This document shows, in pieces, positions 597 to 26,310 of a stretch of 64,000 nt of DNA. Below the pieces are notes generated by a model. That model did not search any database, was not told where the DNA came from, and was given only the letters and a program-made list of their open reading frames with translations. The stretch comes from Rhodospirillales bacterium (GTDB taxonomy: Bacteria; Pseudomonadota; Alphaproteobacteria; SP197). The translations under genes were made by a program, and so were the position numbers. Numbering within the stretch: the stretch's first letter is position 1; each line of letters opens with the position of its first letter. Where the stretch lies: NCBI GenBank assembly GCA_014323865.1, contig JACONG010000016.1:441982-505981 (forward strand), written 5' to 3'.

Positions 597-773
597 GGGC
601 AATCCCGGGGGGCACGGCCGTCAAATCGAGAACGCCATGGGAGAACGTCATGGCAAGACGACTGGGGCGAGACGACCGGGGCAAGCAACTGGATCGATCG
701 CTTGCGCCTCGACCCGACGACGCCCACCTTGGATGTGGTAGCCGCAGGCTCCATGACCGGGAGGAACAGCAAC
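597..773. repeat. Intergenic stretch with two short tandem duplications
   Basis: Between the glycosylase and moaB there are two independent tandem duplications: a 13-base unit at 628-640 repeated at 641-653 with one mismatch, and a 14-base unit at 657-670 repeated at 671-684 with two mismatches. No gene is visible. The end holds the moaB ribosome binding site, GGGAGG at 759-764. The duplications look like replication slippage products; no function is apparent. Confidence 0.6.
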
Positions 774-1325
774 ATGCCGGGAATTGACGAGAGCAGGGCG
801 TTTCTGGCCGTCAGGATCGCGGTGCTGACGGTCTCCGACACCCGTTCGCCTGAGGACGACCGGTCCGGCAACATCCTGGTCGAACGCATCGAGGGTGCCG
901 GTCACATTGTTGCCGACCGCCAGATCATCCGGGACGAACAGGCCGGGATCGAAGCCGCGCTAGGGCACTGGATCGGCGACGACAGCATCGACGTCGTGAT
1001 CGCCACCGGCGGCACCGGCGTGACCGGCCGCGACGTGACGCCGGAAGCCTTCGAAGCGGTCTGCGAGAAGGCGATCCCCGGTTTCGGCGAGCTGTTCCGC
1101 TGGCTGTCATTCGGGAAGATCGGCACGTCGACCGTGCAGTCCCGCGCGACCGCGGGTGTCGCCGGCGGCACCTATCTCTTTGCCCTGCCGGGTTCGCCCG
1201 GGGCCTGCAAGGACGCCTGGGACGACATCCTGGTTCATCAGCTCGATTACCGCTTCCGGCCCTGCAACTTCGTGGAACTGATGCCGCGCCTGACCGAGTC
1301 AGGCCGCGCGACCGCCCGGAAGTAG
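774..1325 (+). CDS. moaB: Molybdenum cofactor biosynthesis protein MoaB
   Basis: MoaB/MogA-type protein of molybdopterin synthesis, acting in the cytoplasm; this family adenylylates molybdopterin before molybdenum insertion, or has a supporting role where MogA is present. The molybdopterin-binding signature is clear: [15 protein letters not shown] near the N-terminus, then [16 protein letters not shown], then [16 protein letters not shown]. The ATG at 774 gives 183 residues, close to the usual 170-180, and has GGGAGG nine bases upstream; the longer frame from 702 lacks family similarity. No other moa or moe gene lies nearby, so it stands alone. Confidence 0.93.
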
Positions 1326-1344
1326 CCGTGACAACATCGCTGTC

Positions 1345-1365
1345 GGCGGGCTAGTCCGGCCCGCC
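1345..1365 (+). terminator. Hairpin after moaB, possible terminator
   Basis: A perfect 7-bp GC stem (1345-1351 with 1359-1365, GGCGGGC/GCCCGCC) with a 7-base loop lies 20 bases after the moaB stop. There is no T-tract, so a Rho-dependent or weak terminator is more likely than a strong intrinsic one. Confidence 0.35.
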
Positions 1366-1503
1366 CGGGTATGGCGATAACCGGCAACGCCCGCAATCGG
1401 CTTTGAACAGCAAAAGCCCTTGCAGGCGATGAAGCATTGGTACGGGATACGACAGGCTAGGGTGTGGTAGCTGGGATTTTGCTAGACTTGGGAGGGTATA
1501 GTC

Positions 1504-3435
1504 GTGGATGCAAGGGAATTCAAAGTCACTGACATACTAAGCCGGAATGAGAGGTTCGTCGTTCCGCTCTATCAGCGACAATATCAGTGGCACGATCATA
1601 AAGGATATGAAGGCCGCACAAGTTCCTTCTGGCTTGATGTTGTTGCGAAAGCCTCGGAAGTCATCGACAGAAACGCTCGGTTTGATCACTACATGGGAGC
1701 GCTGCTTTTGGCTCCTGAGGCGATGTCACGCTCCTTTGGAGCAACGCCTGTCGTTCAGGTTGTTGATGGGCAACAGCGCCTGACCACGTTTTTGATCATG
1801 CTGGCGGCATTGCGCGAAGTTGGCCGAGGGTACGACCATCAAGTCCTGATCGACCAGATTGAAAAATATCTGTTCAACGAAACTGGTCGCGCCGATACTG
1901 ATCCTCTTTCCCGGTTCAAGCTGACACCTACGCCCGTGGATCGGACTGTTTTCCTCGATATTCTGGAGAATCCTTATTCTGAGGTACGATCAAACAATTG
2001 GGATGAGTATTATTGGGGAGGGCGCGTACCTCAAAATACAGCAGCACGCTCACTCCGGGCCTACGAGTATTTTTATGCCCAGATCAGTGAATTTGTCTCA
2101 GATGGCATGAGCGATGAGACAGAGATCGATATCGACACTGACGAATCCGAAGAGACAACAGATAACGAGAACACGGAAGAAAGCCGGAAGAGACTGGACG
2201 CCCTGCTCGAAGCCCTCGTCTTTCATATGAAGCTGATTGTCATCACTCTTGAGCGTGAAGACGACGCGCAGGTCATCTTTGAGACCTTGAACTCGAAGTC
2301 CCAGCCCCTTCTCGCCATGGACCTCGTGAGAAACAACATCTTCCACAGAGCTGAAGCGCAATATCGCGGGGCAGAAGATGCTCGGAAGAGGGCTGAGCGC
2401 CTTTATCATGAGGTTTGGGGGCCGTTTGATCATGGTTGGTGGCGCGAGAACGCACCGAATGCCCGGCCGGCTCGACCGCGCATCGACCATTTCCTTGCAA
2501 ACGTGCTGACTGCCGAGACAGGTGATCGGATTACGGTCAGAGAACTTTATGCGGAATACCGTGCCTGGGCGACCCCGAAGCGACAACCCAGATTCGAGAA
2601 GGTGGAGGACGAGCTCGCAGTCCTTCAACGTCATGTCCCGGCCTTCGAGACTCTGGAAGGTCGCAAAAAGGGGGACGAGGCCATAGCTTGGCTGGGCGAT
2701 AGACTGCGCCTTTGGCAAAACACCACGGCTTATCCGATAGCATTCCAGATTGCCCTGGACACCGTGGATAGCGAAACGCGTTGGCAGGTCGCGAAATGGC
2801 TTGATAGCTATTTCGCAAGGCGTCTGCTATGCGATCTTACGACCAAGAACCTCAACAAAGTGTTTCCAAGATTGGCCGACACCCTTCACAGCAAGGGCGT
2901 GTCTACCGAAGTCGTCAGAAACTTCTTTTCTGGCATGACAACGGATACCGCCCGATTTCCCAACGATGCCGAACTCAAATCGGGGATTCTTGAGAGTCCA
3001 GCATACGGGCGCGTCCCTTCGCGCATCCTGTCTGACATGTTGTGGTCACTGGAACTGGCGAGCCGGTCTGGTATGACGGAAGCCACGACACGCCCGCCTT
3101 CGATAGAGATCGAACACATCATGCCCCAAAACTGGGAAGAGAATTGGTCTTTGAACGGTGAGTTCGTAGAAACGAACGATTGGCAGATACCAGGCTATCG
3201 GGAGCGCGAGGCCGCTCTCCAGACCCTGGGCAACCTGACAATCGTCACGGACCGACTCAATCCGTCCTTGAGTAACGCGGCGTTTTCGGACAAGAGACGG
3301 AAGCTGGTTGAGCACTCCAATCTTGCCATGAACCGACAGATTGCTGAGCACGACGCGTGGGATGAAATGAGCATCCGGGCTCGGGGTGAAACCCTGGCCG
3401 ATCTTGCTGCCAGGGTCTGGCCTTCACTCGCATAA
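1504..3435 (+). CDS. DUF262/DUF1524 protein (GmrSD/SspE-like restriction enzyme)
   Basis: Single-chain protein of 643 residues. The N-terminal DUF262 domain shows PLYQRQYQW (residues 21-29) and the DGQQR nucleotide-binding/sensor motif (residues 88-92). An acidic linker rich in D/E lies around residue 205-225. The C-terminal DUF1524 HNH nuclease domain shows IEIEHIMPQNW near residue 535 and LGNLTIVTDRLN near 580, giving the His-Asn-type metal site. Members such as GmrSD and SspE cut DNA carrying modified bases or phosphorothioates, using NTP hydrolysis for control. The start is GTG with GGAGGG seven bases upstream. Base composition is near 50 % GC in places against about 65 % around it, and codon use differs from its neighbours, which suggests transfer. 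No dnd/ssp modification genes are beside it, so its trigger is unknown. Confidence 0.85.
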   Translation: MDAREFKVTDILSRNERFVVPLYQRQYQWHDHKGYEGRTSSFWLDVVAKASEVIDRNARFDHYMGALLLAPEAMSRSFGATPVVQVVDGQQRLTTFLIMLAALREVGRGYDHQVLIDQIEKYLFNETGRADTDPLSRFKLTPTPVDRTVFLDILENPYSEVRSNNWDEYYWGGRVPQNTAARSLRAYEYFYAQISEFVSDGMSDETEIDIDTDESEETTDNENTEESRKRLDALLEALVFHMKLIVITLEREDDAQVIFETLNSKSQPLLAMDLVRNNIFHRAEAQYRGAEDARKRAERLYHEVWGPFDHGWWRENAPNARPARPRIDHFLANVLTAETGDRITVRELYAEYRAWATPKRQPRFEKVEDELAVLQRHVPAFETLEGRKKGDEAIAWLGDRLRLWQNTTAYPIAFQIALDTVDSETRWQVAKWLDSYFARRLLCDLTTKNLNKVFPRLADTLHSKGVSTEVVRNFFSGMTTDTARFPNDAELKSGILESPAYGRVPSRILSDMLWSLELASRSGMTEATTRPPSIEIEHIMPQNWEENWSLNGEFVETNDWQIPGYREREAALQTLGNLTIVTDRLNPSLSNAAFSDKRRKLVEHSNLAMNRQIAEHDAWDEMSIRARGETLADLAARVWPSLA

Positions 3436-3521
3436 GCCGGCGAACGCACCCCTTTGTCTCGTTGAATCCAGCGTAGTCCAGCCTGATCCAGTTCTTTTTG
3501 CGCAAGGGCCCCCCTGCGTGA

Positions 3522-4388
3522 TCAGCCCTTCCCTTTCCAGGGAATCAGCCAGCGCTCAAGACGACGCATGATGAGTTCGATGATATAGCCGATCAGGCCG
3601 ATGATGATGATGCCGATGACCACAGTGTCGGTCTGCAGGAAATTCTTGGCGATCATGATCATCGAGCCAAGCCCCTTGTCGGCAGCGACCAGCTCGGCAG
3701 CAACCACCGTGCCCCAGCATACGCCCATCGAGGTCCGCAAGCCCGTGAAGATCTCGGGCAGCGCGTTGGGCAGGATGACGTGGCGCATCACCTGGAACTT
3801 CGAGGCACCGAGCGAATAGGCAGCATGGACCTTCGAGATGCGCACACTGGAAACGCCGGCCCGCGCCGCGATCGTCATAATGAAGAGCGAGGCCAGGAAA
3901 AGCAGGAAGATCTTGGCGAACTCGTCGATGCCGAACCACAGGATGATGAGCGGGATCAGCGCGAGGGGCGGGATCGGCCGCATGAACTCGACGATGGGAT
4001 CAAAGAGGCCCCGACCGATCGACGATAGCCCCATGGCGAAGCCTAGCGGCACCCCGATCAAGGTGCCGTAGAAGACGCCGGACAGCACGCGGTAGACGCT
4101 GATGCCGACGTGGTCCCACAGCGCGACGTTACGGAAGCCTTCGCTGAGAAGCTTGATCAGCCGGTCCCAGGTCGCATCGATCGACGGCCAGTAGAACGGC
4201 TCCACGAGATCGAAGACCGAAGCGATGATCCAGGCGACGAGCAGAATCAGGATGGCGACGATCGAATAGATGCGGCCCGAGTTGACGGCTGTCGCATCAC
4301 CGAACTTGACGGTCTTCTGGCGCGTGAAGGTGTTGTCGGAGAGGCCGAGCCAGATCGAGAGCTCGGAAGGTTTCTTCTTGTCGTCCAT
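3522..4388 (-). CDS. tauC: Taurine-type ABC transporter permease TauC/SsuC
   Basis: Inner-membrane permease of 288 residues for a taurine, sulfonate or related small anionic substrate. Six or so hydrophobic segments follow a charged N-terminus, and the cytoplasmic EAA loop that docks to the ATPase is recognisable around AAYSLGASKFQVMRHVILPNALPEI. It is the last gene of a three-gene minus-strand operon; the tauB stop lies nine bases upstream. Its 3' end faces the incoming DUF262 gene 86 bases away. Family assignment is strong; the substrate rests on similarity of the whole operon to TauABC. Confidence 0.88.
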   Translation of the reverse strand: MDDKKKPSELSIWLGLSDNTFTRQKTVKFGDATAVNSGRIYSIVAILILLVAWIIASVFDLVEPFYWPSIDATWDRLIKLLSEGFRNVALWDHVGISVYRVLSGVFYGTLIGVPLGFAMGLSSIGRGLFDPIVEFMRPIPPLALIPLIILWFGIDEFAKIFLLFLASLFIMTIAARAGVSSVRISKVHAAYSLGASKFQVMRHVILPNALPEIFTGLRTSMGVCWGTVVAAELVAADKGLGSMIMIAKNFLQTDTVVIGIIIIGLIGYIIELIMRRLERWLIPWKGKG

Positions 4389-21235: not shown

Positions 21236-22288
21236 TCAATCGATGTCGAGCGGGGGCAGGGTGTTCACGATTTTCACGGTCTCCAGGCTGACGGTGATGA
21301 CACGCCGGAACAGGTCGAGCGGGTAGCGGGGATCGCCCATGGTCTCGTTGGCAAAGTCGTTGGCATCGTTGACGATGCCGCTGGCCTTGTCGGTCTTCAC
21401 CGCCTGCCGTTGCATCACCCATTCGAGTGCGGGCCTGCCGTTGACGATGTAGTCCCAGGCTTCCGGCGGAATGTCCGTGATGACGATGTGCTCGTTGTAG
21501 ATGACCGTGGTTCTGTCCTTCTCCCGTCCCTTGCCGCCGAACTTCATCTTCCTCACCCGGTAGAACGCGACCGGATCGGTCCGGGCCTCCGTTATCAGGC
21601 GGTGGTCGCCTTCCCTGAAGGTGACCGCAAAGGGCTCGACGCTGCCGAAATTCACATGCAGGTCGCCAAGGGCGCGGCCCGCATCGCGGAAGGCGGCAAA
21701 ATCCTCGAAGCGCTTCACCGGCGGAATGCGCGGCAGGGCCTTGGCGAGGTTGTTTCCGAAGCGTGTGCGATAGTCGGGCGCATGAAGCAGGCCATAGATA
21801 TAGTAGAAGAGGTCTTCCTTGCCGATGTCCCGACCGGGATAGGCGGCGCGGAACGGTGCCAGCCCCGCATCGGCAATGGCCTCGCGGCGGGTGAGGTCAT
21901 GGCCGGTTTCGGTCTCCCCGCCGCTCAAGAGACCGCCCTCCGGCCCTGCCTGCTCGTAGAGGTAGAGCGGGAAGCACTGGCCTTTTTCTATCGTGTCAAA
22001 ATTGGGCACCGCGTCCGTCATCAGTGCTGAAAACCCGGCCCCCGCTCCGGTGCCCGAGACCTGGATGACCCTGTTTTTTGCCTCCGCATGGGGGAAGATG
22101 CGCGGCATCCGGTAGACCATCTCATTCAAGCGGCGGTCAAAATAAAGCCATTGTTTGTGAAACGGGCGATAGAGGCTGGGAACGATGTTCCCCGCGTCGA
22201 ATGCTATCCTGCGGCCCTTCTTCAGGTCCTGTTTCAGGGCGCGGCTCCAGTTGATTGCCCTGGAGTCGGTGTTGACGAAGCCATCCAC
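21236..22288 (-). pseudogene. 3' part of the frameshifted restriction-modification gene
   Basis: This 350-codon frame continues the large restriction-modification gene in another reading frame. It begins inside the target-recognition region (GFVNTDSRAINWSRALKQDL, then SLYRPFHKQWLYFDRRLNEMVY), which in related single-chain enzymes directly follows the methyltransferase part. Its first ATG is not a natural start: the codons before it (reading Asp-Val) continue the alignment. It carries the DNA-specificity domain and ends at 21236 about 250 bases from the convergent atpF. Without it the upstream polypeptide would lack most of its recognition domain. Confidence 0.8.
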
Positions 22289-25200
22289 ATCGGGCTTTCC
22301 CCGGCCTCGGCATGGCGGTCAGCTTCGGCGTTGTAGAATTCGATCATGCGGGCCATGTTGTCCATGAGTTTCCTGTGGCTCGACTGGATGCACCATGCAT
22401 CGCGGCTGGTGACAATTCCGCAGGAGTAATTCCCGAATATCGCCATATCGGCTGACGTCTTGTCACCCATTGCAGGGAAACGCTCGAAGCTCCGGTCCAC
22501 CTGATCGAGCCAGTCGTTGTTCGCGTCCGGCGTAATCTGTGTCCAGTTCCCGGCCTGTGTGATGCCATCGATCGAACGGAAGTCCCGGATAAGGCCCAGC
22601 TTCTGTTCGCGGTCGAGATCGTCGCCGATGTCGTGGAAACGGATGTGCCCGTGTTCCGTCGCCCCGGGGTTCTTGACCAGAATGGCAATGGATGTGCCGG
22701 TCATGCTGGCCGATCCGAAGATGTTCCCCCCTTCCCCGGCAGCCCCCTTCGAGAGCATATCCTTGCGGATGTCGCCCCGCAGGTGGAACACATAAAGATC
22801 GCTGAACTCCTCGGCCAGACACGCGCGCAGACCGTCCATCGCATTGCCATCAATCCAACCCGCATTGGTGACAAAGGCCATCACGCCCGCATCCCCGATC
22901 CGGTCGCTGGCCCAGCGGAAGGCGCGGATGTAGCTGTCATAAAGGTTTTTCTTCAGCACAGCATTGGAACGATCCGCGTAGGTGTCCCTGATCCTGGCGT
23001 CGAGGTTTTCGTATTTCAGATTCTTTGCATTATCGTTTTCTTTCTTCTGCCCGGCAGAATAGGGCGGGTTGCCTACGATCACCCGGATATCGAGTTTCTT
23101 CTGCCGCGTCCGGCGTTCCGAATTGTCGGGCAGCAGGTCGGCGATCATGTCGCGTTCCTGTTCGTACATCTGGAACGTGTCGGTCAGCGCGATACCGGTA
23201 AAGGGCTCGTAGGGCGCGTTGTCCGACAATGCGCCATGGGCCCGTTCACGATACACGGTCTCGATATTGATGGCCGCGATGTAATAGGCCAGCAGCACGA
23301 TCTCGTTGGCGTGAATCTCACAGGCGTATTTGTGCGCCATTTCTTCGGGCGCGATCAGGTCCGACTGCAGGAGCCGGGCGATGAAGGTGCCCGTGCCGGT
23401 GAAGGGGTCGAGGATATGCACACCCCTCGATCCCAGTGTCTGGCCGAACTGAGCCTTCAGCACGTCATTGACCGAACGGAGGATGAAGTCCACCACCTCG
23501 ACCGGCGTGTAGACGATGCCCAGCCGCCCGGTCAGGTGCGGAAAGGCATTGCGGAAGAACCGGTCGTATAGATCGGCGATCAGCCTCTGGCGCCCGTCGG
23601 CGGTGACCACATCTTCGGCGCGGCGCGCCACGCTGGCATAGAACCGGTCCAGGTCTGTCGTTTCCTTTGCCAGATTGTGGCCATGCAACTGTTCCAGCAC
23701 GGTTTCCATGGCACGCGATACCGGGTTCTGTGCCGTAAAGGCGTTGTCCCCGAAGAGCGTGTCGAAGACAGGCTTCGCGATGAGATGCTGGGCCAGCATC
23801 TCGATGGCCTCCGCCTCGGTGATCGACGGGTTCAGGTCGTCGCGCAGTTCCTCAAGGAACGCCAGGAAGGCCTGCCGCGCCGGGCCGTCACAGGCAACGA
23901 TGGTCCCGATGCGTGTGATGTGCGTGCCGGCAATCCGCGCGATATCCCCGGTCCAGGTTTCCCAGTAGTCGCGGGTGCCGCATTTCTCGACAATCCTCGC
24001 CATGATGGCGCGGGTTACGGCGTCGAATGCCAGCTCGTACTGGGGTTCCGGGTTATGGATGTACCGGGCTCCCGGGTCACGGCCCCCGCGCCCTTCCTTC
24101 CCGGTCCCGCCGGTGGAGAAATCCTCGACAACGGCGGTCACCGCATCGAGTTCCGCCACACGTATCAGGGCGATCCGGTCGCTGATATCCTCGCCGATGC
24201 GGGCCTGGTTGATGCGCGCATCGAGCCGTTCGTCATGGGCGCGCAGCGCGTTCAGGATCTGCCAGATCACCCGGTAGCGCTCATTGTCATTGAGCGCCTC
24301 CTCGGGGCTGATGTCGGGCGGAATGGCAACGGGCAGGATGACATAGCCCAGCGTCTTGCCTTCGGCCCGGCGCATGACGCGGCCCACCGACTGCACCACT
24401 TCGATCTGGCTCTTGCGCGGATGCATGAACAGGATCGCATCCAGGGCAGGCACGTCCACCCCTTCGGACAGAACCCTTACGTTGGTCAGGATGCGGCAGG
24501 TGTCCTCGCCTGCCTCTTCACGGAGCCAGTCCAGCCTCTCCTCGCGCGCCGAAGCATTGAATTTGCCGTCGATATGGCGCACCTCGGTGGTGATGTGCCG
24601 GACATCCTCGCCGGAGTCGCTGGTGTATTCGGCAACCACCTGCGCAAACTCCTTCTCGACGATGCGGGAGGCGGCAATTTTGTCGCAGAACACCAGCGCC
24701 CGCTTCATGGGGCAGGTATCGTCCTTCATGCCCTCCTTCGCCAGCGCCTTGTAGCAGCCGACGATCTTGGTCGCGTCGCCCAGCGTCAGTTCGGGCCCGT
24801 CGCGCAGGCGGTTCTGCACAGTCGTCGAGACCAGCCTTTCGTCCACCGCCAGCACGACCACCTTGTAATCGGTCAGCAGCCCGTCCTCCACCGCCTGGCC
24901 AAAGCCCAGATGGAACAGTGTCTCGCCGAACATCTCCGCGTCATCCATCGAGGCGAGGGCGGCCTCATGGTCGTCCGCCTTCCGCTTCGCCCCTTCCCCG
25001 AAGATACGCGGCGTCGCCGTCATGTAGAGCCGCTTGCGGGCCGACACGTGTTCGTTGCGGTGGATGCGCACGAAGGCGCTGTCGTCCTCCCCCTTGAGCG
25101 TGACGCCCGTGGTGCGGTGCGCCTCGTCGCAGATCGCGAGATCGAACGCCGGCAGGCCGTGGTCCTTCTGCGCGCGGGTCAGCACGTCGATGGAGTGATA

Positions 25201-26196
25201 GGTGGCAAAGACCACCGTCATCCGCTCCGCCGGGGCACCGGCCACCTGACCGGCGAGCCGGTCCGCATCGGTCGTGGCCGGAAAGGCCAGGTCATGCACG
25301 GTCAGGTCGAGGCTGTCGGGGTCCGGCCGCCTCTTGCCCACCGCCTGATCCGAGCAGACCGAAAAGGCGGTGAAGTCCTGCGCACAGTCGGTCTTCCATT
25401 CGCGCACCGTCTGCGACATCAGCGCCAGCGACGGCACCATGCAGAGCACACGCCCGCCACGCCCCGCCATGGTCTCGGCAATCGCAAGCGCGGTGAAGGT
25501 CTTGCCCGTGCCACAGGCCATGATCAGCTTGCCGCGGTCGGCGTCTGCAAGACCCTTGGTCACCGCCTGCAGCGCATTGCGCTGGTGGTCGCGCAGCTCC
25601 TTCTTCGGCGCGAGGCTGACCGTGCCGCTGCGCAGGAACCGCGACCAGTCGATGCCGCTGGCCTCCAGCTCGCCAAGCCCGATCCGGTTCCAGTTCTTCG
25701 AGAGGTTTTCGAGCGTTTCCTTCGCATTTCGCCCGAAGCCGTCCTGGCTCGTGTCAACAATAATCAGGCGGGTGAACGTCTCGTTTCCCGCCGCCGAGAT
25801 GAAGCTGTCGATCGCGGGCTTGGAGATGCGCCCGCCGCGCTCCAGAAACTTGCACTGGATCGCCGCATGGCCCGAGCCGTCGGCATGTGTCGCCACCAGA
25901 TCGATCCCGATGTCGGTCCTCGCCCGGCCCTGCGCCTCGGCCCACTCGCCATAGGGCTTCACATCCGACCAGAACTGTTTCTGCACCGGATCGTGCAGAA
26001 GATAGGCGCGCACAACCCGCTCGAAACAGTCGCCCTTCTCGCGTTCCGAACGCGCCTCGGCGCGAAATCGCTCCAGAATGTCGCGCAGCGACATTGCGCC
26101 CGGCTCCGCCGCCGGGCCGCCATCTGTCACCGCCCTGACGTCATGCCGTGGATCTTGTTCGTCTTTGTCCGTTCCCGTCATAACCTTTTCCGTCAT
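22234..26196 (-). CDS. Type ISP restriction-modification enzyme (LlaGI-like), frameshifted near 3' end
   Basis: A single-polypeptide restriction-modification protein. Parts in order: an Mrr-like PD-(D/E)xK nuclease (Asp99 in GIDLVATH, QCK at 114-116); a superfamily 2 helicase/translocase with GTGKT near residue 225, CDEAHRTTG near 355 and SVGRVMRR; an adenine-N6 methyltransferase with DPFTGTGTF near 928 and NPPY near 1041; then the start of the target-recognition domain. The frame shifts at about residue 1303, adding a short foreign tail, and the rest lies at 21236-22288. Together they would give about 1650 residues, typical of LlaGI/LlaBIII. Start ATG 26196 has GGAG seven bases upstream; the apparent extension to 26304 is translated tRNA. 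The whole gene could be active only if the frameshift is a sequencing error. Confidence 0.88.
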   Translation of the reverse strand: MTEKVMTGTDKDEQDPRHDVRAVTDGGPAAEPGAMSLRDILERFRAEARSEREKGDCFERVVRAYLLHDPVQKQFWSDVKPYGEWAEAQGRARTDIGIDLVATHADGSGHAAIQCKFLERGGRISKPAIDSFISAAGNETFTRLIIVDTSQDGFGRNAKETLENLSKNWNRIGLGELEASGIDWSRFLRSGTVSLAPKKELRDHQRNALQAVTKGLADADRGKLIMACGTGKTFTALAIAETMAGRGGRVLCMVPSLALMSQTVREWKTDCAQDFTAFSVCSDQAVGKRRPDPDSLDLTVHDLAFPATTDADRLAGQVAGAPAERMTVVFATYHSIDVLTRAQKDHGLPAFDLAICDEAHRTTGVTLKGEDDSAFVRIHRNEHVSARKRLYMTATPRIFGEGAKRKADDHEAALASMDDAEMFGETLFHLGFGQAVEDGLLTDYKVVVLAVDERLVSTTVQNRLRDGPELTLGDATKIVGCYKALAKEGMKDDTCPMKRALVFCDKIAASRIVEKEFAQVVAEYTSDSGEDVRHITTEVRHIDGKFNASAREERLDWLREEAGEDTCRILTNVRVLSEGVDVPALDAILFMHPRKSQIEVVQSVGRVMRRAEGKTLGYVILPVAIPPDISPEEALNDNERYRVIWQILNALRAHDERLDARINQARIGEDISDRIALIRVAELDAVTAVVEDFSTGGTGKEGRGGRDPGARYIHNPEPQYELAFDAVTRAIMARIVEKCGTRDYWETWTGDIARIAGTHITRIGTIVACDGPARQAFLAFLEELRDDLNPSITEAEAIEMLAQHLIAKPVFDTLFGDNAFTAQNPVSRAMETVLEQLHGHNLAKETTDLDRFYASVARRAEDVVTADGRQRLIADLYDRFFRNAFPHLTGRLGIVYTPVEVVDFILRSVNDVLKAQFGQTLGSRGVHILDPFTGTGTFIARLLQSDLIAPEEMAHKYACEIHANEIVLLAYYIAAINIETVYRERAHGALSDNAPYEPFTGIALTDTFQMYEQERDMIADLLPDNSERRTRQKKLDIRVIVGNPPYSAGQKKENDNAKNLKYENLDARIRDTYADRSNAVLKKNLYDSYIRAFRWASDRIGDAGVMAFVTNAGWIDGNAMDGLRACLAEEFSDLYVFHLRGDIRKDMLSKGAAGEGGNIFGSASMTGTSIAILVKNPGATEHGHIRFHDIGDDLDREQKLGLIRDFRSIDGITQAGNWTQITPDANNDWLDQVDRSFERFPAMGDKTSADMAIFGNYSCGIVTSRDAWCIQSSHRKLMDNMARMIEFYNAEADRHAEAGESPMWMASSTPTPGQSTGAAP

Positions 26197-26222
26197 ACTG
26201 GGCTCCACAATGTGCGGCCGCG

Positions 26223-26310
26223 TGGCGGAGGGAGCGGGATTCGAACCCGCGAGGGCTTTCACCCAACACGCTTTCCAGGCGTGCGCCTTGAACCGCTCGG
26301 CCATCCCTCC
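26223..26310 (-). tRNA. tRNA-Ser (anticodon GGA)
   Basis: On the minus strand the acceptor stem GGAGGGA (26310-26304) pairs with TCCCTCC (26233-26227), followed by discriminator G and an encoded CCA at 26225-26223. The T-arm GGTTCGAATCC is intact, the anticodon loop reads CTGGAAA giving GGA for UCC/UCU codons, and a long variable arm is present as expected for serine. The restriction-modification gene begins 27 bases after the CCA on the same strand. Confidence 0.96.

Follow-up and report, generated by a model that had tools for sequence, protein, structure and literature searches.

The 64,000-nucleotide stretch of Rhodospirillales DNA analysed here (the window) carries a horizontally acquired gene that sits between two housekeeping regions and, judged by its encoded domains, adds a new member to the single-chain GmrSD family. 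The results below show that its domains and motifs are intact, that its sequence has been under selective constraint and that it is acquired and solitary; they also cover the fold of its product. The best overall explanation, which we hold to be probable, is an acquired, solitary, single-chain GmrSD-family nuclease that would be NTP-driven, modification-dependent and in need of no partner; the protein is most likely a type IV restriction enzyme that depends on DNA modification. The locus is laid out as follows.

1504–3435, plus strand: 643-aa single-chain GmrSD-family gene (DUF262 + DUF1524), from the open reading frame, Pfam, PADLOC and the fold model
1528–2343, plus strand: GmrSD_N (DUF262) domain, residues 9–280, from Pfam and conserved positions in 20 aligned proteins
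2989–3402, plus strand: GmrSD_C (DUF1524) His-Me (HNH-like) nuclease domain, residues 496–633, from Pfam and the alignment
768–1325, plus strand: left flank, moaB-like gene, present in all 10 genomes of the genus, own included
3522–4388, minus strand: right flank, tauC-like permease gene, with orthologues in congeners
1336–3521, no strand: inserted segment, 2186 bp against 181 bp in the congener G008, with blastn breakpoints at 1335 and 3522

The gene is an unbroken frame of 643 codons, with a GTG start that lines up with the starts of its relatives in the alignment, a Shine–Dalgarno-like GGGAGGG stretch directly 5′ of that GTG, and a TAA stop. The initial annotation had described a solitary DUF262–DUF1524 gene, and this held: the frame is single and intact, and both Pfam domains lie in the same chain above the cut-offs for their families, GmrSD_N with an E-value of 2.5e-29 and 103 bits against 33, and GmrSD_C with an E-value of 2e-26 and 93 bits against 23. 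Among PADLOC models, the protein matched Orf5 best (9.5e-80), followed by mREase_IV (2.1e-72) and HEC-06 (3.2e-53), with the match to mREase_IV, the type IV model, spanning residues 5–641. A scan against NCBIfam returned a single sub-threshold match (E = 0.08) that we put down to chance. A scan for sigma-70-like promoters and for terminators likewise gave nothing above chance, with no sigma-70-like promoter upstream.

The conserved positions of both domains are in place. GmrSD_N carries P21-x-Y23-Q24-R25, D88-GQQ-R92 and F259-xxx-N263, and GmrSD_C carries E537, H538, P541, N577 and N586. Across an alignment of 20 proteins, which omits a homologue with an internal TGA (L043), one that runs off its contig end (L046) and a fragment (L007), Q24-R25, D88GQQR92, F259, N263, H538, P541, N577 and N586 are invariant in 20 of 20. 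These are the motifs given for GmrSD in passages of PMC4619093, and they agree with the TgvAB motif list in an excerpt of PMC11411939. Three motifs printed in the former passages are (I/L/V)(E/D)H(I/L/V)xPQ, L(G/A)NLxLLxxxN and NxxFxxKK (PMC4619093). The first corresponds to IEHIMPQ (residues 536–542), the second to LGNLTIVTDRLN (575–586), which exceeds the printed pattern by one residue and has I/V for L/L, and the third to NAAFSDKR (591–598), in which R replaces the last K.

Comparison with congeners locates the insertion. Gene labels used here (moaB, tauABC, smc, atpB and gcvP) come from the initial annotation or from our reading of the translations; orthologues of the tauC-like gene are 86–91% identical in six of the nine other genomes of the genus and 70% identical in a seventh. 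In G008 the moaB-like (85%) and tauC-like (91%) genes adjoin, with no DUF262–DUF1524 gene between them, and blastn homology to this locus (L010) stops at window position 1335 and restarts at 3522. Because the moaB and tauC neighbourhoods are rearranged in several other congeners, the empty-site comparison is with G008 only and, taken by itself, could possibly reflect loss there rather than gain here. Low GC together with absence from all nine congeners favours gain in the window genome. The presence/absence comparison of sister strains, proposed at the outset as a check, found the gene missing from the syntenic G008 site and from the nine other genomes of the genus: among the 10 genomes the window's own is the only one with a full-length homologue, G003 giving only a partial match (query residues 17–107) to a different protein. 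Across the class, 6 of the 385 genomes searched, own included, hold a homologue at E ≤ 1e-40. A repeat search at the insertion found no bracketing direct or inverted repeats, only a left-flank repeat and repeats within the gene, and no transposase or integrase adjoins the gene among the open reading frames read.

The composition of the gene is equally distinct. Its GC content is 0.538, whereas the window averages 0.647, and its GC3 is 0.593 against 0.811–0.860 in all 11 other window genes measured, in line with the low GC relative to neighbours noted earlier. When the window was scanned in 311 segments of 1932 bases with a step of 200 bases, a single segment (0.3%) fell at or below the GC of the gene, and it overlaps the gene itself. 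Even composition and conservation at this locus in every relative had been named as evidence against acquisition; the profile is uneven, and with the empty G008 site and the lack of a full-length copy in nine congeners, the proposal of an acquired gene is borne out. Between the gene and its 74% relative (L006), codon positions 1, 2 and 3 differ by 0.22, 0.14 and 0.60, a comparison used in place of dN/dS (NG86) because dS was saturated. This third-position bias indicates purifying selection on the gene, perhaps exerted in donor lineages, so that present use is not proven by the constraint.

L006, the nearest relative found, comes from a Rhodospirillales metagenome-assembled genome, where it likewise stands alone at an unrelated locus and has a low GC content (0.545 within a locus of 0.627). 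A tree joins the window gene, L006 and three 49–50% relatives (L005, L008 and L007) in a five-row clade with support of 100/99; the long branches L047, L044, L045, L088 and L054 are unsure, and only the clade that holds the window gene is used here. Of the 49–50% relatives, the one from Ciceribacter (L005) adjoins hsdR, hsdS and hsdM as read by eye, the one on a Gemmobacter plasmid (L008) lies inside an hsdR–hsdS–DUF262–hsdM arrangement, and the one from Tropicimonas (L007) has its N terminus swapped for an IS110-like transposase piece. At L007 7383–9533, one frame fuses a piece of an IS110-type DEDD transposase to an N-terminally truncated DUF262–DUF1524 protein. Among the 14 plasmid relatives examined of 20 listed (H1–H3, H5–H8, H12–H14 and H16–H19), type I genes lie within 7 kb in four (H1, H3, H5 and H7) and not in the other ten. 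Another relative, L045, is in what looks, from reading translations, like an Hma cluster. Relatives in phage records number five, each 22–23% identical. Of 80 viral loci, 36 were selected, and 3 of the 36 were discarded for internal stops. GmrSD homologues often adjoin type I restriction–modification genes according to passages of PMC4619093, and parts of PMC11411939 describe the same association, so the context of the roughly 50% relatives is not new.

An AlphaFold2 model of the protein built from 37 sequences (pLDDT 88.1, pTM 0.82) gave 11 Foldseek matches at E ≤ 0.001, all to DndI, SspE or BrxU, with DndI first (E = 6.3e-16). VIA-align superposed 545 residues of the model on DndI with a Z-score of 23.3 and an rmsd of 7.2, against a Z-score of 4.4 for the best unrelated row; for the C-terminal part of SspE the Z-score was 22.6 over 347 residues (rmsd 3.4), a tie with DndI. 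The sequence profile also ranked DndI first among solved structures (E = 4.2e-39), and PDB chain 20yv matched at E = 2.8e-23. DndI of Salmonella Cerro 87 (PDB 9JFL; PMC11662687) is therefore the closest solved relative in both sequence and fold, and BrxU (7p9k/7p9m; PMC8565348) is a further fold match. The large rmsd values (7.2 for DndI; above 20 for BrxU and full-length SspE) make the placement of the domains tentative.

Two features of the host genome limit which modification the enzyme may recognise. DndC and SspD belong to the PAPS-reductase family. A TIGR03183 profile search found no DndC in the window's own genome (G000, given as 99.88% complete), and a PF01507 search found no PAPS_reduct-family protein there while returning positives in 14 of 14 control genomes. 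A phosphorothioate self mark of the DndI/SspE type is thus unlikely. Lacking any PAPS_reduct-family protein, the genome may also miss assimilatory sulfate reduction. It encodes one cytosine-5 methylase, beside an EcoRII-C restriction enzyme gene (L145 3214–6201, contig C16, about 725.7–728.7 kb). DNA containing 5-methylcytosine can be cut by BrxU, according to passages of PMC10952713 and PMC8565348, and if the host methylase is active, an enzyme cutting at its EcoRII-like 5-methylcytosine would be self-toxic. Sequence context could separate host 5-methylcytosine sites from the enzyme's targets; the host background leads us to favour a phage DNA modification that is bulkier or of another type.

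From characterised relatives we infer NTP use, sensing, cleavage and phage restriction. The N-terminal DUF262 (ParB/Srx-like) domain would bind NTP and detect modified incoming DNA; hydrolysis of the NTP in the DGQQR pocket would shift the domains and release the C-terminal His-Me nuclease (H538, N577 and N586), which, once freed, would cut or nick the modified DNA. The enzyme would require neither a partner gene nor a methylase, and its target is likely other than the 5-methylcytosine of the host's EcoRII-like system, with no reliance on phosphorothioate self marks.

The closest solved structure counts against this explanation, because DndI works in reverse of GmrSD logic, cutting unmodified DNA and being restrained by modification (part of PMC11662687). 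By analogy, the nuclease might be active by default on unmarked DNA, with a host mark other than phosphorothioate, such as type I or type ISP m6A, sparing host DNA; relatives in type I operons would in that case serve as additional effectors that read the HsdM mark. The rank of DndI in both the profile (E = 4.2e-39) and Foldseek (E = 6.3e-16) searches, the 49–50% relatives adjoining or embedded in type I operons (Ciceribacter, Gemmobacter plasmid) and a complete type I system with a second hsdM/hsdS pair elsewhere in G000 are all consistent with such mark-reading. We nevertheless judge it unlikely: those type I genes are unlinked to the window gene, ten of the 14 plasmid relatives examined lack type I genes within 7 kb, type I-embedded TgvAB targets hypermodified phage DNA (in an excerpt of PMC11411939), and the literature passages at hand do not describe mark-reading of this kind for the GmrSD family. 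We also regard as unlikely a reading in which the five-row clade (window gene, L006, L005, L008 and L007) forms a GmrSD subfamily of previously undescribed specificity, built most like DndI; such a subfamily would have to spare host EcoRII-like 5-methylcytosine if the methylase is active and, with phosphorothioate marks lacking, might instead recognise a different phage modification or a methyl mark of the type I systems that house its relatives.

That the protein is instead an SspE/DndI-like effector that senses phosphorothioate and has lost its modification genes is highly improbable. Its fold matches both proteins and Y23 pairs with the phosphorothioate-sensing Y25 of DndI in a pairwise match (residue as given in part of PMC11662687), but G000 has neither DndC nor a PAPS_reduct protein, and six of the 20 aligned proteins have F at position 23 where the other 14 have Y, so an aromatic residue there may be a family trait. 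A mobile-element relic, decaying or silent and now without function, would fit the foreign composition, the absence of a promoter-like match and the truncated, IS110-fused Tropicimonas relative; the full-length frame, the intact motifs throughout and the third-position-biased change from L006 argue otherwise and make this reading very unlikely. The preferred reading is a modification-dependent nuclease of the GmrSD kind.

Single-chain GmrSD enzymes such as Eco94GmrSD have the same DUF262–DUF1524 fusion and motifs in passages of PMC4619093; family members described there often lie beside type I genes, whereas the window gene is solitary among housekeeping genes. The comparison with GmrSD and SspE made in the initial annotation survives for the fusion architecture and is weakened for the SspE mechanism. 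SspE has the same two domains and fold, and both it and DndI use host phosphorothioation as a self mark (part of PMC11662687), but SspE depends on phosphorothioation by SspABCD and the partners of DndI are iscS-dndBCDE, whereas G000 has no PAPS_reduct-family match and no dndC match. The absence of an accompanying modification gene was upheld, with none evident by eye among the open reading frames listed for 1–9 kb. BrxU stands with HEC-05 and HEC-06 among the closest known systems. The PADLOC match to HEC-06, a GmrSD-like protein embedded in Hma systems, has no counterpart in the surroundings, since no BREX or Hma (helicase, methylase, ATPase) genes were seen by eye among the open reading frames at the locus. 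TgvAB of Vibrio cholerae is GmrSD-like and, like the roughly 50% relatives, type I-embedded (excerpt of PMC11411939), but it requires two proteins, and the window gene is single with no adjoining second DUF262 gene. A TgvAB-type pair was rejected, the neighbours being the moaB-like and tauC-like genes.

The window gene alters nothing basic in the field. It provides an empty-site example of a one-gene defence module moving among Alphaproteobacteria, either solitary or type I-linked, in a genome whose cytosine-5 methylase gene and lack of phosphorothioation genes restrict what the substrate could be.

Other restriction systems exist in G000, one of them within the same window, as do two further DUF262 genes away from the window gene. 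One of these (L042 7304–8977, contig C4) matches NsnA (4.7e-67) and PD-T4-2_A (6.2e-53) and is followed by a HEPN_RiboL-PSP gene, likely making a PD-T4-2-like defence pair; the other (L041 6344–7948, contig C16, about 709.8 kb) has no DUF1524 match and matches PDC-M55C in PADLOC (1.2e-58). The restriction system in the window is a type ISP restriction–modification enzyme (21236–26304, minus strand) with Mrr_cat_2, ResIII, ISP_coupler, N6_Mtase and Type_ISP_C domains, which starts at a tRNA-Ser gene (26223–26310). A frameshift in either the genome or the assembly divides it into two frames near 22.24–22.29 kb, with Type_ISP_C profile positions 1–49 in the first frame and 46–342 in the second.
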